From NCBI RefSeq assembly GCF_003609605.1, contig NZ_MCHY01000007.1, positions 62,001 through 126,000 on the forward strand: a DNA stretch of 64,000 nt, in the 5' to 3' direction. This stretch comes from Ammoniphilus oxalaticus (GTDB lineage: Bacteria; Bacillota; Bacilli; Aneurinibacillales; RAOX-1). Below the pieces are notes generated by a model. That model did no database searches. It was given only the letters and a program-made list of their open reading frames with translations, and was not told the DNA's origin. Positions 2,745 to 63,928 of this stretch are shown here, piece by piece. Within the stretch, counting starts at the first letter, position 1, and each line of letters starts with the position of its first letter. A program made the position numbers and the translations under genes.

Positions 2745-3470
2745 ATGAGGATCATTCGTGTAAAAGACGATCAAGAAATGAGTCAAAAAGCGGCGGAGAT
2801 GGTCATTGCCAAAATGCGGAAAAACCCAAGTTTAACACTTGGTTTAGCAACAGGGGAAACGCCGATTGGTACGTATCGCCTAATGATTGAAGATCATCAA
2901 CGAAACGGCGCTTCGTATCAACAAGCCACAACTTTTAATCTGGATGAATATGTTGGGCTGCCAGGCGAGAATGACCAAAGCTACCGTTATTTTATGAACA
3001 AATATTTATTGGATCATATTGATATTAAGAAAGAGCGCACCCATATCCCAGACGGCAATGCAGCTGATGTTCAACAAGAGTGCGTGACTTACGAGCGGTT
3101 AATCGCTGAACACGGTGGGATTGACCTGCAAATTGTCGGCATTGGGCGCAACGGTCACATCGGATTTAATGAACCCGGTACGCCGTTTGACACGAAAACT
3201 CATATCATTGAGTTAACGCCATCGACACGGGAAGCGAACGCTAAGTTTTTTGGTCGAATAGAAGATGTGCCGACGCATGCGATCACGATGGGGATCGCGA
3301 CGATCTACGCAAGCAAAGAGATCATTATGCTCATTACGGGTGAGAGTAAAAGAGAGGCTTTGAACAATTTAATTCATCGTGATATCAATGAAGCGTTTCC
3401 AGCCTCAGCTTTAAAACGGCACCCTAACTTCATAATCATCGCCGATGAAGCTGCGTTAGGTGAAAATTAA
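2745..3470 (+). CDS. nagB: Glucosamine-6-phosphate deaminase
   Basis: Converts glucosamine 6-phosphate to fructose 6-phosphate and ammonia, the step that feeds amino sugars into glycolysis. The protein shows the family motifs LATGETPIGTYR, FNLDEY and GIGRNGHIGFNEPG. ATG at 2745 follows AGGGGGAG at good spacing and gives 241 aa, the normal length for bacilli; a longer upstream reading would add 22 residues without family support. nagA is not adjacent, unlike in many relatives. A LacI-family gene and its putative operators lie directly upstream, and a clear terminator follows. Confidence 0.95.
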   Translation: MRIIRVKDDQEMSQKAAEMVIAKMRKNPSLTLGLATGETPIGTYRLMIEDHQRNGASYQQATTFNLDEYVGLPGENDQSYRYFMNKYLLDHIDIKKERTHIPDGNAADVQQECVTYERLIAEHGGIDLQIVGIGRNGHIGFNEPGTPFDTKTHIIELTPSTREANAKFFGRIEDVPTHAITMGIATIYASKEIIMLITGESKREALNNLIHRDINEAFPASALKRHPNFIIIADEAALGEN

Positions 3471-3503
3471 AGATAATGACAGCTTTGCGCTGCAGATGCA
3501 GAG

Positions 3504-3537
3504 AACCTCAATGGAACTAAGATCATTGGGGTTTTTT
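3504..3537 (+). terminator. Rho-independent terminator of nagB
   Basis: AACCTCAATG (3504-3513) pairs with CATTGGGGTT (3524-3533), one G-U pair, followed by a run of T. Confidence 0.8.
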
Positions 3538-3575
3538 CATATGTTTATGTCTGAAACGATTCGATCGTCTCGCAG

Positions 3576-3902
3576 CTAAAATAGGAATCGAAGAGCCATC
3601 AACGAAAGGATGCCGACCAGCACGGCCCCGAGCAAGCTGCGCGTGAGAATGGCCACAATAAAAGTTGGAAGAGCAGCCCATAACTCCATATTTTGTGAAA
3701 TGGGGGTGAACTGTCCGTCGTTTAGCAGCAATTCTTGTCCGACTAACGCGGCCATGACAGAAATCGGCACGTATTTTAACCATCGCATTCCCCACTCTGG
3801 GATTTGGATGCGACTTAACACAACGAGCGGAAGCGCTCTCGGGATAAAGGTGACGAGCGCAGCCCCCAGAATGATGAACAATATTTCTCCTCTTACTTCC
3901 AC
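3576..3902 (-). CDS. azlD: Branched-chain amino acid exporter, small subunit AzlD
   Basis: 108-aa hydrophobic protein with four predicted membrane segments, including ALVTFIPRALPLV, the conserved signature of AzlD. With AzlC it forms a branched-chain amino acid (azaleucine) efflux system in the plasma membrane. GTG at 3902 is chosen because the frame overlaps the end of azlC by 10 bases, as expected for translational coupling; no ATG lies nearby. A longer upstream reading in this frame would be an out-of-frame overlap with azlC and is rejected. Confidence 0.85.
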   Translation of the reverse strand: MEVRGEILFIILGAALVTFIPRALPLVVLSRIQIPEWGMRWLKYVPISVMAALVGQELLLNDGQFTPISQNMELWAALPTFIVAILTRSLLGAVLVGILSLMALRFLF

Positions 3903-4624
3903 TTTTCCACCACCATTCCAAATGTTGAAGCGATTACTGTCGCTAAGATCACGCCAGCGTTTCCTGATAATTGCATTGTAAGGAACACAACGAGGACAAC
4001 GGCCCAGCAAGCGACAAAGATGTCCGTTTTTATGTTGGCTCTGCTCACCATCTGCAGCACGAGTAAGCCGATGAACATCGCGGGTAACGCAAAGTCCAAG
4101 CCGAATTTTTCCGGTTGCGTAATCCATTGTCCGAGGAATGCGCCGCACAAATTGGCGATGATCCAGTTGAGGTAGGCGGTCAGATTCAGCCCATGCATCC
4201 ACTTTTCGCTAATCTTTTTCTTTTTGGCGTTTTCACTTATGGCCACTCCGAATGTTTCATCAGTGACAAGCGCGCCAATTAACGTATTTTTTAATGGGGT
4301 TAAGTGACGAAAGAAAGGGGACAAGGCGGCGCTGAGCAGTAAATGGCGTAAATTGATAAAGAAAATCGTGAGTGTAATGGCGCCGAAGGAGCCGTGAGCA
4401 GCAATCATGCCCGTCATAATAAATTGAGCTGAACCGGCATAGACGAGCGCGCTCATCAATACGATTTCAATCGCGCTTAGGCCGGATGTGACACCTAATA
4501 CACCCGCGGCAAAACCGATACTCCAATATCCCAGCAAGGTTGGGACGCAGTCTTTTACCCCCTGCAGAAACGTTTCTTCTTCGTGGTTCTCCTCTTCGCT
4601 GTATAATTCGACTTGTTCTTGCAT
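3893..4624 (-). CDS. azlC: Branched-chain amino acid exporter, large subunit AzlC
   Basis: 243-aa membrane protein with an acidic cytosolic N-terminus and about six membrane segments. The motif GVTSGLSAIEIVLMSALVYAG is typical of AzlC. It is thought to export branched-chain amino acids together with AzlD, whose start overlaps its last codons. A GGAGAG site precedes ATG 4624. It diverges from pncB, sharing the 160-base upstream region. In B. subtilis the azl genes are controlled by an Lrp-like AzlB; no such gene is seen here. Confidence 0.9.
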   Translation of the reverse strand: MQEQVELYSEEENHEEETFLQGVKDCVPTLLGYWSIGFAAGVLGVTSGLSAIEIVLMSALVYAGSAQFIMTGMIAAHGSFGAITLTIFFINLRHLLLSAALSPFFRHLTPLKNTLIGALVTDETFGVAISENAKKKKISEKWMHGLNLTAYLNWIIANLCGAFLGQWITQPEKFGLDFALPAMFIGLLVLQMVSRANIKTDIFVACWAVVLVVFLTMQLSGNAGVILATVIASTFGMVVEKWK

Positions 4625-4687
4625 GATCGTGTCTCTCCATTTCGCTAGTCTGTCAATTAAGTCTTCGTGTAACGATGCAATTCAGTG

Positions 4688-4756
4688 TATAATATATAAT
4701 ACAGGGGGGTTGGCCAAACGTCTACAAAACATCTTTAATCTTAAGGAAGGGCCAAC
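4688..4756 (+). promoter_or_regulatory. pncB upstream region: overlapping -10 boxes and a leader inverted repeat
   Basis: Two TATAAT hexamers occur at 4688-4693 and 4695-4700; no good -35 is visible. GTTGGCC (4709-4715) and GGCCAAC (4750-4756) form a 7-base inverted repeat in the probable leader just upstream of pncB. Its role is unknown. Confidence 0.4.
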
Positions 4757-4784
4757 TCTAATAAATCGAATGGAGGCATCATAG

Positions 4785-6242
4785 ATGAGTCGTTATCCAG
4801 ATGATAGCTATGCATTACATACAGACCTCTATCAAATTAATATGGCGGAAACGTATTGGGAGGATGGGGTCCACGAGAAGAAGGCCGTGTTCGACCTTTA
4901 TTTTCGTCGCTTGCCATTTGGGAACGGATACGCAATTTTTGCCGGCTTGGAGCGAATTATCGAATATTTACAATCCTTTCGCTTCAGTGAAAGCGATATC
5001 GAATATTTACGTGATTTAGGGTACCGCGAGGATTTTTTGAGTTACTTGAAAACGATTCGTTTTACAGGGAATGTTCGTTCTGTGCAAGAAGGTGAATTGG
5101 TGTTCGCTGAAACGCCGATCATGCGTGTGGAAGCGAATTTAGCCGAGGCTCAGTTAATTGAGACCGCACTTTTAAATATTGTTAATTACCAGACGTTGAT
5201 CGCGACAAAAGCATCAAGGGTAAAACAAGTTATTGGAGACGGAACGGCATTGGAGTTCGGGACACGTCGCGCGCATGAATTTGATGCGGCATTATGGGGA
5301 ACGAGAGCCGCTTATATTGCCGGATTTGCGGGAACGAGTAACGTGCGGGCCGGTAAAAAATTTGGCATTCCTGTTGCGGGGACACACGCGCATTCGATGG
5401 TTCAAGCTTATCAAGACGACTATAAGGCATTTAAGAAGTATGCGCGTCGTCATCGTGACTGCATCTTTTTAGTCGATACGTACGATACATTAAAATCAGG
5501 AGTTCCGAATGCGATTCGCGTCGCTAAAGAGTTGGGCGATCAAATTAATTTTGTCGGAATCCGTTTGGACAGTGGAGACTTAGCCTTCTTAGCGAAAGAA
5601 GCGCGGAAAATGTTGGATGAAGCAGGCTTCCCGGACGCGAAAATTGTCGCTTCCAATGATCTCGATGAATACACGATTTCGAGTTTGAAAGCGCAAGATG
5701 CTCCGATTGACAGTTGGGGAATCGGAACGAAATTGATTACCGGTTATGACCAACCTGCTCTCGGCGCTGTTTACAAAATATCTGCGATTGAAGACAAACA
5801 AGGCGAGATGGTCGATACGATTAAGATTTCTTCTAATCCTGAGAAGACGACCACACCCGGTATTAAGAACGTCTTCCGTATCATTAATAAAGAAACAAAG
5901 CGCTCTGAGGGGGACTATATTGCTCTCCACGGAGAAGAACCGCAAAAAGAAGACCGGTTGCACATGTTCCATCCCGTTCATACGTATTTGAGTAAACATG
6001 TTACCAACTTTGAAGCGATCGAATTGCAACGGGACATCTTCAAAGATGGAGAACTAATTTATACGTTGCCGAAATTAGATGAGATTCGAGTATTTGTTCA
6101 AGATAATCTGAATGTGTTGTGGGACGAATACAAACGGACGAACAATCCACATCAATATCCGGTCGATTTAAGCAAAGCATGTTGGGAAAATAAACGAGAT
6201 TATATTGAAAAAGCGTTAAGATTGGCAAGAAAAGAGAAGTAA
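4785..6242 (+). CDS. pncB: Nicotinate phosphoribosyltransferase
   Basis: Joins nicotinate to PRPP to give nicotinate mononucleotide, the entry of the NAD salvage pathway; a cytosolic enzyme. The 485-aa length and the stretches HTDLYQINMAETYW, EFGTRRAHEFDAALWGTRAA, GTHAHSMVQAY and VGIRLDSGDL match the family. A GGAGG site lies 8 bases before ATG 4785. The gene appears monocistronic, with an AT-rich double -10 region upstream and a strong terminator downstream. Confidence 0.95.
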   Translation: MSRYPDDSYALHTDLYQINMAETYWEDGVHEKKAVFDLYFRRLPFGNGYAIFAGLERIIEYLQSFRFSESDIEYLRDLGYREDFLSYLKTIRFTGNVRSVQEGELVFAETPIMRVEANLAEAQLIETALLNIVNYQTLIATKASRVKQVIGDGTALEFGTRRAHEFDAALWGTRAAYIAGFAGTSNVRAGKKFGIPVAGTHAHSMVQAYQDDYKAFKKYARRHRDCIFLVDTYDTLKSGVPNAIRVAKELGDQINFVGIRLDSGDLAFLAKEARKMLDEAGFPDAKIVASNDLDEYTISSLKAQDAPIDSWGIGTKLITGYDQPALGAVYKISAIEDKQGEMVDTIKISSNPEKTTTPGIKNVFRIINKETKRSEGDYIALHGEEPQKEDRLHMFHPVHTYLSKHVTNFEAIELQRDIFKDGELIYTLPKLDEIRVFVQDNLNVLWDEYKRTNNPHQYPVDLSKACWENKRDYIEKALRLARKEK

Positions 6243-55777: not shown

Positions 55778-57187
55778 TTAATCTTTTCTTTTTATTGAAG
55801 GAGATAGGACAACTTGTCCAATCGGAGCAGAGATAATCTCGCCATCTTTCATGACGGTATGTCCGCGCACAATCGTAGCGACAGGATAACCTTTGATTTC
55901 CATGCCATGATAACCACTGTTCTTTGATTTACTGTGTAATTTTTGGCGGTCGATGACGCCCGTTTTGTTCATATCAACGATGGTGAAGTCGGCGTCAGTG
56001 CCAATGACAAACGACCCTTTTTGCGGATAAATTCCGTACTGCTTCGCCGGGTTTTCGGAACATAAGGCAACGATCTGCTGTAATGTTAATCGACCTTCAG
56101 AGACAGCGTTAAGTAGAAGAGGGATGATCGTTTCCACGCCAGCCATTCCCGCAGGGATTGACCACAAGTCACCTGTTTTCTCTTCAATTGTATGTGGGGC
56201 ATGGTCCGAACAAACAATGGTTAATACCCCGTCTTGCAGTCCTTGCCAAATACGTTCTTGGTCCGCGCGGTATTTAATGGGAGGGTAAATTTTCATCATC
56301 GGGCCGATCCGTTCGTAATCCTCATTGGTCAGGAATAAATATTGAGGACATGTTTCCGCGGTGATTGGCAATCCTTGTTGTTGCGCCTGTTCGATCAAAT
56401 CAACCGAATCTCCCGCGCTAACATGTAATATATGTAATCTGGCCCCTGTTGCTTCAGCAAAGGAAATTCCCGTGGCCACCGTTACTTTCTCCGCCAACGG
56501 AGGTCTACCTTCTAGAAACGCATCATAGTCGGTTCGCCCGCTATTGGCCACATTTTCAGTGAGCGACTGCATTAAATCATTATTCTCCGCATGAATTGCA
56601 AACACTTTGCCTGTTTTAGCAACTTCATCAAAGATCATATACACTTGTCCATCATGTAGGGGAGGGATGACGTCAGGCATACCTGGCGTGTAATTGTATT
56701 CTAACTGATAGGTCTTACTGTTAATGGCATAGCCCCAAAAAAACTTAAAACCAATCACGCCCGCTTCATTTAGTCCCTGCAATTCCTTATTATTCAGATC
56801 CCCTAAACAAATGGCCCATAACCCAAAGTCAACATGGGCTTTCGGCGTTAAGTTGTCGACTTGGGCGTGGAAGCTTTCAGCGCTGTTAATGGTGCGCTGC
56901 GTATTCGGCATATCAAATACGGTCGTAATCCCGCCGGCCGCTGCTGCCTGTGTGGAAGTAAAGAAATCTTCTTTGTGCGTCGGACCTGGATCGCGAGAGT
57001 GAATATGGGTATCCATTAGTCCTGGGAGGACGTAATATCCCGTTGCATCTATTTCTTCATTGGCGCCACCTTCCAATAGTTCTTGCGAAATCGCCGCTAT
57101 TTTTCCATCTTTAATGTAAATATTAGCAGTAAATTCGCTTTGTGAAGTAACAAGCGTTCCGCCTCGTATAATCTGATCCCATTTCAT
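55778..57187 (-). CDS. Allantoinase / cyclic amidohydrolase (dihydropyrimidinase family)
   Basis: 469-aa metal-dependent amidohydrolase of the allantoinase-dihydroorotase group. Metal ligands are visible: DTHIHSRDPG near residue 58, Lys in GFKFFWGY near 150 (carboxylated lysine), His in FAIHAEN, LHILHVS, and Asp in CSDHAPH. The DMPNT stretch and the general length fit allantoinase best, but hydantoinases are close. AAAGGCGG lies 8 bases before ATG 57187. An allantoate-type amidohydrolase is at 31.6 kb, which supports but does not prove the assignment. Confidence 0.85.
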   Translation of the reverse strand: MKWDQIIRGGTLVTSQSEFTANIYIKDGKIAAISQELLEGGANEEIDATGYYVLPGLMDTHIHSRDPGPTHKEDFFTSTQAAAAGGITTVFDMPNTQRTINSAESFHAQVDNLTPKAHVDFGLWAICLGDLNNKELQGLNEAGVIGFKFFWGYAINSKTYQLEYNYTPGMPDVIPPLHDGQVYMIFDEVAKTGKVFAIHAENNDLMQSLTENVANSGRTDYDAFLEGRPPLAEKVTVATGISFAEATGARLHILHVSAGDSVDLIEQAQQQGLPITAETCPQYLFLTNEDYERIGPMMKIYPPIKYRADQERIWQGLQDGVLTIVCSDHAPHTIEEKTGDLWSIPAGMAGVETIIPLLLNAVSEGRLTLQQIVALCSENPAKQYGIYPQKGSFVIGTDADFTIVDMNKTGVIDRQKLHSKSKNSGYHGMEIKGYPVATIVRGHTVMKDGEIISAPIGQVVLSPSIKRKD

Positions 57188-57270
57188 TTGAAATCCGCCT
57201 TTCTCACCAATTCCAATCATTGTTTTTTGTTCCTCTTATTATACAACAATCCAACTTGTTCCGCTTCAGC

Positions 57271-57627: not shown

Positions 57628-58155
57628 CTGAATACCTCCTCATTTAGCTCATGATCAGTTTATTCTGGGCGGGTTAGTCCTGTTAATAAATTGTTTCCGT
57701 TATAAGAATTGAGCAGAAGAAACCTATCAACGAAGACAATTTCAAGATTAAAAAAGCTGAGCGCTGTCGAATGGTGGAAGGAGTTAGTTAATCGACTGTT
57801 TAAATTATTTTCAAATTCGACAAAATGAGGCAGTGAATAAAACGCTTCATATTTTTTGAAATGATAAATTCCTAATGGAACGAGTGAAGAGAAGGAAAAG
57901 CTTGATTTTATAAGATGGAATCTGATAGACCCGTTGGAGTAGAGTTGGTTGATGAAGCTGGAAATCCTCCAGTTTATAGGTGTTCTAGCGTTGTTTTCAA
58001 TAAAAAAGTCGAAATAAGGCACGAGTTAGTTAATCGACTAATTAAAAATAACAAACTTTCGACATACCGTTTATGGGTTGAATTATACCGAGTGTACCTG
58101 TATGATAATACCTAGGATACCGATGCCTAGATATTCGATGTATAGGAGGGAAAAG
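57628..58155 (+). other. Gene-poor 528-base stretch with a 17-base direct repeat
   Basis: No frame here has a good ribosome site. GAGTTAGTTAATCGACT occurs exactly at 57781-57797 and 58023-58039. In one plus frame (57915-58115, MESDRPVGVELVDEAGN) the sequence looks protein-like, and both repeats encode a similar ELVNRL, so it may be the decayed remains of a gene with an internal repeat. A long minus-strand frame across the same region looks like its shadow. Confidence 0.4.
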
Positions 58156-58491
58156 ATGAAAATTAATAAAGAGCTCCTGAAAGGAAGTACGGTGATTCTG
58201 ATTTTAACCCTTTTAAATGAGCGACCAATGTATGGTTATGAGATGATTAAAGAGATCGAAAAAAGTTCGGGTGGGATTTTTTCATTTAAAGAAGGAACGC
58301 TGTATCCAATCTTACACGGGTTGGAGACGGACCAGTATGCCGAATCGTTTTGGAGTGAACAAGAAGGGACCCGCAGAAGAAAATACTATCGGATTACAGA
58401 TAAAGGGAAACGACAACTCAAAGAAAAGAAACAGGAATGGGTGACATTTCGAACAGCGCTAGATCATGTCATTGGAGGTGGTCATGCGTGA
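58156..58491 (+). CDS. PadR-family transcriptional regulator
   Basis: 111-aa winged-helix repressor. GSTVILILTLLNERPMYGYEM, EKSSGGIFSFKEGTLYPILHGLE (20-residue parts of this span) and YYRITDKGKRQL are characteristic. GGAGGG lies before ATG 58156, and its end overlaps the next start (GTGA). PadR proteins usually repress their own operon and respond to lipophilic or aromatic compounds; here the operon is the SEDS-like gene. Confidence 0.9.
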   Translation: MKINKELLKGSTVILILTLLNERPMYGYEMIKEIEKSSGGIFSFKEGTLYPILHGLETDQYAESFWSEQEGTRRRKYYRITDKGKRQLKEKKQEWVTFRTALDHVIGGGHA

Positions 58492-59759
58492 GTTACTCGG
58501 ATCCGAAATTGACTCATTACATCCAAGACGTTTGTAACCAAATAAAATGCAAAGAAGTTCATGCTGAGATACAAGAGGAATTGCGAAGTCATATTGATGA
58601 AATGGTCGATGATCTCATTGAAGAAGGAATGCCCCAAGCGAAAGCGATCGATAAAGCGATTGAGCAAATGGGTGATGCGAGCCTGATTGGCAAGCAATTT
58701 CACCAAAGATACAAACCGAGAATGGACTGGTCTTTATTAGGGATGGCGCTCGCTTTGATCGGGGTTGGATTGCTGGTAATGTACTCAATCGAGCATAGTC
58801 AATCGAGCGGGATTCATCAAACTTCGTTAGTTTTAAACAAAGCAGTTGCGGCCGCTATTGGGATCGGTATCGCAGCATGTATATTCTTTTTTGATTATCG
58901 AAAGCTGCAGAAATATTCCTATTACCTTTATTTTGGTTCACTTTTCATTCTTTTTCTATCCTTCGTTTTTAGAGGAGGCTATATTAATGGAGTACCGAGG
59001 TGGGATATCGGTATTGCAAAAATAAACGCAATACATTTGAGCCCTTATTTATTCGTCATTGCATTATCTGGAATTTTGGTCCAATGGGATTGGGGAAAGC
59101 TGGACTCTGTTTTTAAGATATTACTACTCATGTTTACGCCCTCGATCATCTACTTATCTACAAGGGATCTTAATTCTTTGTTTCTTTGGACTGCTTGTTC
59201 TTTAATTGTTTTCTTTGCATCTTTAGCCACTCGAAAACAGAAGTGTATAGTAGTATCATCCCTCATTGTAGGATTGGGATTAATTGTTGCTTATATTGTT
59301 GCAGAGCAATCTTATCCTAGCAAAGATCCATCAAACTGGATTTACATTCAAATTAAAGAAGCGTTTTCATCTGCGGGGTGGTGGGGACACGGGCTTACTT
59401 CCGCCCATGAACAATTACCTTATGCCCATACGGATTTTACTTTTACATATTTTGTTTACGCATTTGGTTGGGTGGGCGGAATTTTGCTTTGCGGATTGGT
59501 GACTCTATTTTTGTTAAGAATGGTTCGCATTACTAAGCAAGTTCGTGATCCGTTTGGTCAAATCTTGACTAAGGGATTGATTGTGATTTTCGTCGTAAAA
59601 TTTATGCGCACAATTTTAATGTCACTTGGATTGTTGCCTGAATTCGGGAATGGTCTGCCATTCATTAGCCACGGCGGTACCGAATTTTTATTGCAAATGA
59701 TGGCGGTGGGGTTGATTTTGAGCATTTATCGCAGAAAAGATTGGGTTTTAGCTGATTGA
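58488..59759 (+). CDS. SEDS-family (FtsW/RodA/SpoVE) protein with N-terminal HAAS-like domain
   Basis: 423 aa. Residues about 1-75 form a helical domain (EIQEELRSHIDEMVDDLIEEG ... AIEQMGDASLIG) typical of HAAS/DUF1700-like domains found after PadR genes; then about nine or ten membrane segments of the SEDS fold. GVPRWDIGI, AHTDFTFTYFVYAFGW and PFISHGGTEFLLQM match the SEDS glycosyltransferase core, and the conserved Asp is present in HTDF, although the usual EELG that follows is YAFG. GTG 58488 follows GGAGGT. Polymerase activity is not assured. Confidence 0.85.
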   Translation: MSYSDPKLTHYIQDVCNQIKCKEVHAEIQEELRSHIDEMVDDLIEEGMPQAKAIDKAIEQMGDASLIGKQFHQRYKPRMDWSLLGMALALIGVGLLVMYSIEHSQSSGIHQTSLVLNKAVAAAIGIGIAACIFFFDYRKLQKYSYYLYFGSLFILFLSFVFRGGYINGVPRWDIGIAKINAIHLSPYLFVIALSGILVQWDWGKLDSVFKILLLMFTPSIIYLSTRDLNSLFLWTACSLIVFFASLATRKQKCIVVSSLIVGLGLIVAYIVAEQSYPSKDPSNWIYIQIKEAFSSAGWWGHGLTSAHEQLPYAHTDFTFTYFVYAFGWVGGILLCGLVTLFLLRMVRITKQVRDPFGQILTKGLIVIFVVKFMRTILMSLGLLPEFGNGLPFISHGGTEFLLQMMAVGLILSIYRRKDWVLAD

Positions 59760-59762
59760 AAT

Positions 59763-59801
59763 AGCCGATATTTTATACATTTTGTAGGGAATCGGCTCTT
59801 C
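59763..59801 (+). terminator. Terminator-like hairpin after the SEDS gene
   Basis: AGCCGAT (59763-59769) pairs with ATCGGCT (59791-59797), with a short CTTC tail; weak. Confidence 0.4.
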
Positions 59802-59913
59802 ATGTTTACATTGTAGCCCTCTTTCCATTAGTGAATTTCCTAAAAATAGATAATAATCATCTTACAAGCGCACAATAGGATAAATCTTAGCTACAGAATG
59901 AATGGAGGATTAC

Positions 59914-60405
59914 ATGATTAAAAAAGTGGGACTTCTCTTTTTGGTCATTCCTATTGTTGTATTTAATTTAACTATGACAGCTTTTTCAGAAGATATTCCT
60001 AGTCAGGACATTGAAAAGCCTTCGGTAAATGGCGATTCTGAAGTCGATGAGATTCGTAAAAAAATGAACTTTAAAACATTTACACCTCAACTTGAGTCTA
60101 AATGGCTATCCAATGTTAAGGTGGAAAGTCGAAACATTGATGAAATTCCGGATACTTTTATCCTCACCTATCAGGATCACCAGCAATCAGAACTGTTACA
60201 CATCCGTCAAAGAGAAGCGCCTGAAAGTATGAGCTACATTCAAGATCAGGGGGAAATAGTTAATATAAGTGGAAACGATGGACGCTTGTTATCGGACGGA
60301 AAGTTCTACTGGTTGCAATGGATTCAAGACGGTACTTTATTGTACATGTACAGCGAACGATTGACAAAAGACGACATGTTAAATACCGCCCGTTCGATGC
60401 AGTAA
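59914..60405 (+). CDS. Secreted protein with DUF4367-like C-terminal domain
   Basis: 163 aa. A signal peptide or anchor (residues about 5-25, cleavage near AFS) precedes an acidic linker, then SNVKVESRNIDEIPDTFILTYQ and a DUF4367-like repeat (LLHIRQREAPE ... NGNDGR ... WIQDGTLLYMYSER). DUF4367 domains occur in anti-sigma factors and membrane-stress sensors. ATG 59914 follows GGAGG. It lies 154 bases after the SEDS gene on the same strand with a weak hairpin between; linkage is inferred. Confidence 0.68.
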   Translation: MIKKVGLLFLVIPIVVFNLTMTAFSEDIPSQDIEKPSVNGDSEVDEIRKKMNFKTFTPQLESKWLSNVKVESRNIDEIPDTFILTYQDHQQSELLHIRQREAPESMSYIQDQGEIVNISGNDGRLLSDGKFYWLQWIQDGTLLYMYSERLTKDDMLNTARSMQ

Positions 60406-60418
60406 CGCGCATCTGAAG

Positions 60419-60449
60419 TCGGCCTCTTCATATAGAGGTCGATTTTTTT
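60419..60449 (+). terminator. Terminator after the DUF4367-like gene
   Basis: TCGGCCTCT (60419-60427) pairs with AGAGGTCGA (60434-60442), then T7. Confidence 0.85.
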
Positions 60450-60806: not shown

Positions 60807-61886
60807 ATGTTAACACTTGATAAGAAAAATCTAAAAGCAGCGATTGGTAAGGATACAAAATTACATTATCTACCGGCTAATCCAGCAACCGTACACTGGG
60901 GATACTTCTCAAAAGATTTACCACCTGTTTTAGAAATCAACTCAGGCGACCTCGTTTACGCGGAAACGATTACGCACCATGCGGGTTATGCTCCTGATCT
61001 TTTGTTAGATGATGTGAGCAGAGAGATTTACGAATCAATTCCATATGAGGATAGAAATCCGGGTTCACACTTGTTAACAGGGCCTATTTACGTGAAAGAC
61101 GCTAAACCAGGCGATACGTTACAAGTTGAAATTTTGAAATTAAAACCGAGAATGCCGTACGGTTCCAACGTACTAGCGCCGTGGGGATACTTATTTAAAG
61201 AATTTAATGAGGAAACGCGTGTCGTGATCTATGAACTAGATGAAGAAGAGCAATGGCTCACAGCAAAATTTGCTTACGATTACCCAGGGGCCTATACAGT
61301 GCGCGGGAAAATTATCGAGCCAGATACGGTTGAGCGTGTGCCTGCGTTAGAAAACATGCAAATTCCAGCCCGCCCACATATCGGTACACTCGGTGTTTGT
61401 CCAGCGGAAGAGGGCAAAATTAGCACGGTTCCTCCAGGTTTGCACGGCGGTAATGTGGACAACTGGCGGATTGCGGAAGGAACAACGATGTACTATCCGG
61501 TATTCAATGATGGCGCTCTATTATCGATCGGAGACTGTCACTTGGCGCAAGGGGATAGTGAAATCGGCGGAACTGCGGTAGAGGCTTCGATGGACTGCTT
61601 AATTCGCGTGACATTGCGCAAAGATTTCAGCGCGAAATCTCCTGTTTTGGAAACGGCTTCAACATGGGTGGCGCACGGGTTTGATGTAGATTTGAACGTG
61701 GCCATGCGTAATGCTTCTAACGAAATGCTAAACTTTGTTCAAAATTACTATGGTCTATCCCGTTTTGACGCGTATTCGTTCATGAGTGTTGCGGCTGACT
61801 TCGGGGTGACACAAGTGGTTGACCACAAGTTAGGGGTCCATGTTACGATCCCAAAACAAGCTTTAAAACCAACTAGAAGATCTTAG
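60807..61886 (+). CDS. Acetamidase/formamidase family protein
   Basis: 359-aa amidase of the FmdA/AmdA family, releasing ammonia from formamide or acetamide. The N-terminal SGDLVYAETITHHAGY, LTGPIYVKDAKPGDTLQVEI and GLHGGNVDNWRI are family landmarks. ATG 60807 is placed 7 bases after GGGAGGGG; an earlier ATG (60738) gives an unsupported extension. It fits the nitrogen-release theme of the window; the substrate could be any short amide. A perfect terminator follows. Confidence 0.9.
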   Translation: MLTLDKKNLKAAIGKDTKLHYLPANPATVHWGYFSKDLPPVLEINSGDLVYAETITHHAGYAPDLLLDDVSREIYESIPYEDRNPGSHLLTGPIYVKDAKPGDTLQVEILKLKPRMPYGSNVLAPWGYLFKEFNEETRVVIYELDEEEQWLTAKFAYDYPGAYTVRGKIIEPDTVERVPALENMQIPARPHIGTLGVCPAEEGKISTVPPGLHGGNVDNWRIAEGTTMYYPVFNDGALLSIGDCHLAQGDSEIGGTAVEASMDCLIRVTLRKDFSAKSPVLETASTWVAHGFDVDLNVAMRNASNEMLNFVQNYYGLSRFDAYSFMSVAADFGVTQVVDHKLGVHVTIPKQALKPTRRS

Positions 61887-63727: not shown

Positions 63728-63928
63728 GCATGAGAATTGATAGGTTAGGAAATTTCTTTTTATGAAAAGGGGGCTTAGAGGAGCCTCTTTTTGCGATGGT
63801 TGGGTCAAACAGTCACGGGTAAAATCGCCCTGCACCTTTTTTGCTCACTAGGATTTAACATAGATAAACAATATATCAGTAGAGATACACTTTTCCCTCG
63901 TGTCCAGTTGACGGTCCCTGATGCCGAT

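Follow-up and report, generated by a model that had tools for sequence, protein, structure and literature searches.

Behind a gene for a PadR-type repressor, the bacterium Ammoniphilus oxalaticus carries a gene that joins a HAAS domain to a SEDS domain, and the locus raises the question of whether a SEDS protein in such a setting still polymerises glycan as FtsW and RodA do. The locus lies in a stretch of 64,000 nucleotides (assembly GCF_003609605.1, contig NZ_MCHY01000007.1, positions 62,001–126,000 of the forward strand), which is called the window here and in whose positions coordinates are given. An earlier note on this DNA had placed a padR, a HAAS-SEDS and a DUF4367 gene here, which profile matches confirm, and had proposed an inducible polymerase for cell-wall repair or for the evasion of antibiotics. 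That proposal is weakened by the loss of cavity residues, by repeated replacement of the catalytic aspartate among relatives and by the published behaviour of a relative from Listeria. We tentatively prefer another reading, to which we give slightly less than even confidence: the two genes may form an envelope-stress module that regulates itself and belongs to the HAAS-PadR type, in which the degenerate SEDS part would be a ligand-binding sensor and effector and not an ordinary polymerase. This reading of the locus as a regulatory module whose SEDS remnant would bind a ligand draws on a conserved operator, a HAAS part that is better conserved than the SEDS part, an apparently swappable membrane part and the lost cavity motifs. 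The arrangement of padR and HAAS-SEDS genes has already been published; what is added here is the operator and the pattern of residue losses.

Fold and cavity residues of HAAS-SEDS proteins

The N-terminal part of the window protein matches the NCBIfam model NF038403 ('permease prefix domain 1') with 57.6 bits at a cut-off of 30, which bears out the HAAS-like fusion claimed earlier; the Pfam HAAS model PF22564 gives 21.5 bits, under its cut-off of 27. The SEDS part matches PF01098 with 135.5 bits (E = 2.9e-39), and its scores with equivalog models are far under their cut-offs (TIGR02210, 142.6 of 336.7 bits; TIGR02614, 125 of 337.5 bits; TIGR02615, 92.4 of 448.8 bits). The predicted structure, with a predicted local distance difference test score of 82 and a predicted template modelling score of 0.79, retains the SEDS fold, with Z scores of 31.4–36.9 over 297–339 residues to seven FtsW and RodA chains. 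Four other SEDS genes are present in the same genome. The products of three exceed the cut-off for FtsW, and two of these exceed that of SpoVE as well; the fourth is RodA-like, with 329.9 bits, just under the 336.7 of TIGR02210 and over the cut-off of NF037961.

HAAS-SEDS proteins keep the fold but not several motifs of the SEDS cavity. Residues were counted in 112 HAAS-SEDS proteins and in 26 canonical SEDS proteins from this genome, its family and 10 genomes of the phylum (11 loci). Partial proteins (L070, L073, L136 and L142; L and G numbers denote loci and genomes) were excluded and the truncated L068 and short L196 and L197 were included; the counts use the second copy for L138 and the genome's own RodA-like protein (L004), neither of which changes applies to the tree described below. 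The aspartate of the HTDF motif is present in 80 of the 112 proteins, versus 26 of 26 canonical ones. The first and second glutamates of EELG occur in none of the HAAS-SEDS proteins, versus 26 and 25 of the 26 canonical proteins. The glutamine, proline, glutamate and lysine of QPSExxK are found in 0, 0, 10 and 1 of the 112, versus 25, 26, 26 and 26 of 26, and the glutamine, aspartate and glycine of QPDLG in 0, 20 and 4, versus 24, 25 and 26. The structural residues Gly327 and Pro391 are invariant (112 of 112). The window protein has N180, A181, H183 and P186 in place of the Q, P, E and K of QPSExxK, and Y324 and A325 ('YAFG') in place of the glutamate pair. The absence of EELG after the conserved aspartate, D316, to which the earlier note had drawn attention, is thus real; however, it is a property of the whole family and not special to this protein. 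A loss of the functional tryptophan, Trp102 of Escherichia coli RodA, was considered and dropped: W172 of the window protein has the right spacing, the family alignment lacks one residue at this point, and a tryptophan lies within one residue of this place in 27 of the 112 rows.

The window protein resembles canonical FtsW, RodA and SpoVE in its fold, in several structural glycine and proline positions and in D316, which occupies the column of the catalytic aspartate. It differs from them in its changed QPSExxK, QPDLG (except D227) and EELG residues, in the additional HAAS domain and in belonging to a separate clade. A tree of the SEDS parts of 66 HAAS-SEDS and 19 canonical proteins was computed by a quick method with the aspartate column omitted, with branch support from the Shimodaira–Hasegawa-like approximate likelihood ratio test (SH-aLRT) and no bootstrap. 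A single branch (SH-aLRT 95) separates all HAAS-SEDS proteins from the canonical proteins. The relatives carry the HAAS domain and fall outside canonical SEDS proteins, FtsW and SpoVE, so that the phylogeny does not count against the earlier note. On this tree, the state of the aspartate column (Asp or not Asp) requires at least 16 changes. In the family alignment, the mean share of the most frequent residue is 0.53 in the HAAS part and 0.41 in the SEDS part, compared with 0.54 in canonical SEDS proteins.

These residues bear on the possibility that the protein is an inducible back-up peptidoglycan polymerase, which would be made when the housekeeping SEDS protein is blocked and would escape the inhibitor through its changed active site. 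The idea was put forward for the Listeria protein Lmo0421 in the discussion of Hauf 2019 (PMC6624303), and we consider it unlikely for the window protein. The closeness of the fold to FtsW and RodA is in its favour, as are the catalytic aspartate, D227 and P311 kept here and the fairly well-kept loop residues of the family; in addition, lmo0421 is among the genes hit by the 206 non-silent changes of a stable L-form of Listeria (PMC4858229, as far as its available text goes). However, the glutamate and lysine of QPSExxK and both glutamates of EELG are lost, and the aspartate has been replaced repeatedly. In E. coli RodA, the residues of which were mapped to HAAS-SEDS columns through our alignments, Asp262Ala is reported to abolish activity and changes of Gln111, Trp102 or Asp159 to lower it; changes of Glu114 and Lys117 have modest effects in vitro, and those of the equivalent residues in SpoVE severely affect sporulation (PMC10449877, available sections).

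The evidence from Listeria, in the accessible parts of Hauf 2019 (PMC6624303), also speaks against a back-up polymerase. The PadR protein LstR strongly represses its own sigC-lstR-lmo0421 operon, as would the PadR encoded with the SEDS-like gene here. No FtsW or RodA activity was found there for Lmo0421: it could not replace FtsW1 or the RodA proteins, sensitivity to six antibiotics that act on the wall did not depend on it, and moenomycin sensitivity was unchanged. The presence of a HAAS domain in Lmo0421 is taken from the listing in PMC11237479. A class B penicillin-binding protein, suggested earlier as a partner, is not encoded near the HAAS-SEDS gene of the window; its genome has eight transpeptidase matches, and the nearest on the contig is approximately 102 kb away.

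Distribution and association with padR

With the window protein as the query and a threshold of E ≤ 1e-30, HAAS-SEDS proteins were found in 63 of 398 genomes of the same class, its own included; canonical SEDS proteins of its own family match this query only at about 1e-20 or weaker. The named relatives (20 loci) belong to Brevibacillus, Paenibacillus, Pelotomaculum, Desulforamulus, Tissierella and Clostridium, and none were present in the viral contigs searched. A padR gene is positioned directly 5' of the HAAS-SEDS gene in 84 of 89 distinct loci, including the window, and all 84 products are PadR by Pfam. The preceding open reading frame was selected by place, strand and size (95–190 residues), with a PadR blast match preferred, and was set by hand to the PadR frame in L068 and L123. 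The five remaining loci comprise two contig starts, two broken SEDS genes and one intact gene (L075). For one contig start (G077), padR and the operator described below were found at the end of another contig, and one of the broken genes has padR 183 bp upstream. In a second set, drawn from the phylum, PadR is encoded at 28 of 29 loci; two of these come from genomes already represented in the first set.

A gene for an extracytoplasmic function (ECF) sigma factor precedes padR in 11 loci, as in Listeria. The PadR proteins of these loci are distant from that of the window (23–30% identity), and the eight of the 11 ECF-type HAAS-SEDS proteins that are in the tree cluster together with L191 (SH-aLRT 99). 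Lmo0421 would belong with these loci, although its own sequence is outside the tree. By contrast, no ECF sigma factor gene was found 5' of padR in the window: all open reading frames of at least 100 residues there are on the opposite strand, one of them, of 105 residues, has no Pfam match, and the only plus-strand frames listed encode 66–68 residues. Some genomes have both types. Contig 8 of G064 has two HAAS-SEDS genes (L138 and L100) that face opposite ways at a distance of about 3 kb, one of them ECF-type and one with PadR only, and G183 and G201 each have one of either type. Among 24 proteins encoded 5' of padR, 11 match the PCYCGC-motif family PF13798, to which no function is assigned, and 11 others are the sigma factors; by exclusion, the PF13798 loci are mostly from the Brevibacillus group.

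A conserved putative operator in front of padR

An expectation-maximisation search of 71 non-redundant upstream regions, with the window left out, gave a 24-bp motif, tATACaTAGATaTaCgATGcATaG, with 28 bits of information. This putative operator scores more than 8 bits in 60 of the 71 upstream regions, and eight of the other 11 have a site of more than 20 bits elsewhere in the locus, counted regardless of its position relative to padR. The log-likelihood is 919, versus 71–84 in three shuffled sets, and the best score among 22 canonical SEDS loci is 2.6 bits. No score exceeds 9.6 bits in the ECF group of 12 loci (the 11 ECF-type loci and L191), which differs from the window in this respect. The motif is common to Clostridia and Brevibacillus and abuts the −10 box of padR. 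A −10/−35 pair scoring at least 9 is positioned just 5' of it in 34 of 55 loci (62%), versus 4.9% of shuffles.

The window has two overlapping copies of the motif, of which copy 2 is the sole match with at most one mismatch in this genome. In the promoter comparison, which is anchored on copy 2, the window scored 5; the consensus scan places its −10/−35 pair 5' of copy 1. Sites that match the promoter consensus at 9 of 12 positions number 11 in the window, with 9.8 expected, so that the promoter carries little weight alone. The promoter region has no inverted repeats with 7-nucleotide arms, and the operator emerged only from the comparison of relatives. The control by PadR postulated in the earlier note agrees with the adjoining padR gene and the predicted geometry of operator and promoter. 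The next-best site in the window (63855–63878, 12.2 bits) is downstream of a lactate-permease-family gene.

A search of 368 genomes for the motif with at most one mismatch gave 39 matches. They fall in 34 genomes, of which 31 belong to the 58 genomes with HAAS-SEDS proteins and 3 to the 310 without (Fisher 1e-25); the first figure is partly circular, because the pattern was derived from many of the same loci, whereas the scarcity elsewhere is not. A reversed control pattern had one match in each of six genomes. When positions were compared by eye, 34 of the 39 matches were within about 1.1 kb of a HAAS-SEDS gene, two were at the contig end of G077 and three were elsewhere; 27 of the 58 HAAS-SEDS genomes have no match at this threshold. 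The genomes with a match that lack an intact HAAS-SEDS gene have a broken HAAS-SEDS gene with PadR (G117) or HAAS genes with other membrane parts (G288 and G306); in G306, no PadR was found within 7 kb of the operator-associated HAAS gene. In G288 (L253, 3919–5150), the same operator stands before padR and a gene in which HAAS is joined to another kind of membrane part, which is a second type of target.

Three loci without PadR (L073, L075 and L204) are also without the operator. In L073 (G003, 4037–4846), from a close relative, the HAAS-SEDS gene is broken, with its N-terminal part missing and the frame interrupted; neither padR nor the operator was found there, and the whole switch seems to have decayed. 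In L204 (G627, 2950–4182), a frame that resembles CsoR by eye lies 111 bp upstream on the same strand, which is possibly a swap of the regulator.

The operator data bear on whether the SEDS bundle is purely a sensor that reads a signal for PadR, with the useful output coming from a different gene or operon that this PadR also controls. Such a role fits the place of the SEDS part, which is that of the sensor domain in other HAAS-PadR systems (PMC11237479 and PMC12419801, accessible text), and it fits G288, which indicates that the membrane part can be exchanged. However, the close match to the operator in this genome is confined to this locus, and deletion of lstR in Listeria mainly raised the expression of its own operon (PMC6624303, accessible text). 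A purely sensory role therefore seems improbable to us. Because matches to the operator are nearly confined to the operon itself, the preferred reading makes the HAAS-SEDS protein both sensor and effector.

A model of the module

In the model that we prefer, PadR would sit on the operator directly 3' of the −10 box and block transcription, and the HAAS domain would dock PadR at the membrane. The SEDS-fold bundle may bind a lipid-linked wall precursor, such as lipid II or another undecaprenyl-linked compound, or a compound aimed at the site of that precursor. Binding of the ligand would alter the contact between HAAS and PadR, free the operator and raise expression of the operon. The additional HAAS-SEDS protein could then shield, buffer or act as a decoy for the ligand, to the presumed benefit of the cell, and would not polymerise glycan as FtsW or RodA do.

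Several observations weigh against this model. The aspartate is kept in 71% of the family, and in 55 of 78 proteins after thinning at 70% identity. An arginine in the loop near the aspartate is present in 97 of the 112 proteins, and P311, P277 and D280 in 83, 80 and 77; the window protein itself is without the arginine-bearing loop segment after residue 276, and it retains D316, D227, P311 and possibly W172. Because the aspartate and the surrounding loop residues are fairly well kept, the site appears to be under some constraint, and its role may be catalytic. In the wall tests available from Hauf 2019 (PMC6624303), cells that overproduced Lmo0421 showed no phenotype, and no effector function is evident there. 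The contact between HAAS and PadR is a published proposal (PMC11237479), and the ligand, the release of PadR and the binding of PadR to the operator are predictions from sequence. The regulon argument relies on a pattern allowing at most one mismatch in 368 genomes, derived in part from the family's own loci.

The HAAS domain was defined by Ravi 2024 (PMC11237479), who cited Hauf, listed fusions to FtsW/RodA/SpoVE domains (CAC98500.1) and proposed HAAS-PadR pairs as an alternative to two-component systems, with a signal passing from HAAS to PadR. The window locus resembles these systems in having HAAS N-terminal to a multi-transmembrane domain and an adjoining standalone padR gene. The word 'operator' does not occur in the main text of that paper, and no analysis of SEDS residues was found in the parts available. 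The BC4206-BC4207 operon of Bacillus cereus likewise encodes a PadR and a membrane protein and is induced by the envelope-active peptide enterocin AS-48 (PMC2774856); however, BC4207 is described as having four transmembrane segments, and 'FtsW' is absent from the available text. Neither an operator of the window type nor the pattern of residue losses was found in the passages seen of the open-licence papers searched.

Organization of the locus

The padR stop and the GTG start of the HAAS-SEDS gene overlap by 4 bp (Table 1).

Table 1 Features of the padR/HAAS-SEDS locus in the window.
Feature	Position	Strand	Basis
Sigma-A-like promoter, TTGAAT-17-TATGAT	58078..58106	+	Consensus scan, 9 of 12
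Putative operator, copy 1, abutting −10 box	58107..58130	+	19.0 bits, matrix trained without the window
Putative operator, copy 2, overlapping copy 1	58122..58145	+	29.6 bits, best in the 64-kb window on both strands
padR repressor gene, 111 residues	58156..58491	+	PF03551, E 2.2e-27
HAAS-SEDS fusion gene, 423 residues, GTG start	58488..59759	+	PF01098 and NF038403 matches
HAAS/permease-prefix domain, residues 17–72	58536..58703	+	NF038403, 57.6 bits
SEDS domain, residues 86–416	58743..59735	+	PF01098, E 2.9e-39; fold comparison of the model
D316 codon, column of the SEDS catalytic aspartate	59433..59435	+	Alignment to the HTDF motif in RodA (E. coli) and FtsW (P. aeruginosa)
Inverted repeat 3' of the SEDS gene, 10-nucleotide arms, 21 nucleotides between	59760..59800	+	Not among the listed terminators of the terminator scan
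DUF4367 protein gene, signal-peptide-like start (by eye)	59902..60405	+	PF14285, E 2.3e-07
Terminator-like hairpin 3' of the DUF4367 gene, 13 pairs and T run	60415..60446	+	Terminator scan

The DUF4367 gene, which starts 142 bp 3' of the HAAS-SEDS gene, had been regarded as its partner. The two genes are adjacent; however, the inverted repeat separates them, no operator copy 5' of the DUF4367 gene is among the best sites in the window, and the gene is not kept in relatives. Its product matches PF14285 (31.7 bits, cut-off 22.1), and one further DUF4367 protein is encoded elsewhere in the genome, according to a search whose results did not include the window's own copy. Only in the window does a DUF4367 gene follow HAAS-SEDS, among 48 downstream proteins scanned (85 were collected), and blastp against 93 other loci gave no match. 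A conserved unit of three genes, as suggested earlier, is therefore rejected, and the DUF4367 gene is most likely a chance neighbour and not part of the module. Terminator-like sites number two in the window, versus 2.1 in shuffles, which is no excess.

The possibility that the protein, with a re-shaped active site, serves as the glycosyltransferase or ligase of a different undecaprenyl-linked glycan is very improbable: the model resembles the O-antigen ligase WaaL (Z 14.1) and 91 of the 112 proteins have Asp or Glu in the aspartate column, but this column also holds Asn (14), Thr (2) and single other residues, and no glycan-synthesis neighbour recurs downstream, where the sugar-related families GHL10 and ROK occur once each among the 25 most frequent of 64 families in 48 proteins.

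The module is flanked on one side by a minus-strand gene for an allantoinase/hydantoinase-like amidohydrolase (55778–57220) and on the other by a plus-strand gene of the acetamidase/formamidase family (60807–61886), with the lactate-permease-family gene beyond.

Implications

It is conceivable, though we hold it to be more doubtful than the module itself, that a large, Bacillota-wide clade of SEDS proteins with degenerate cavities ('pseudo-SEDS') has given up polymerisation to become the ligand-binding partner of a single repressor in a stress switch whose operator is conserved from Clostridia to Bacilli, and acts as a built-in sensor of, or decoy for, lipid II or antibiotics directed at SEDS proteins. 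There is demand for natural inhibitors of SEDS proteins and for sensors that follow the lipid II cycle. Should these proteins prove to bind ligands of SEDS enzymes without any polymerisation, the conserved operator would be a ready reporter for the inducer. The residue pattern would then flag SEDS-like proteins that should not be annotated as polymerases, and binding of this kind would offer a reason why the Listeria homologue fails to replace FtsW or RodA.
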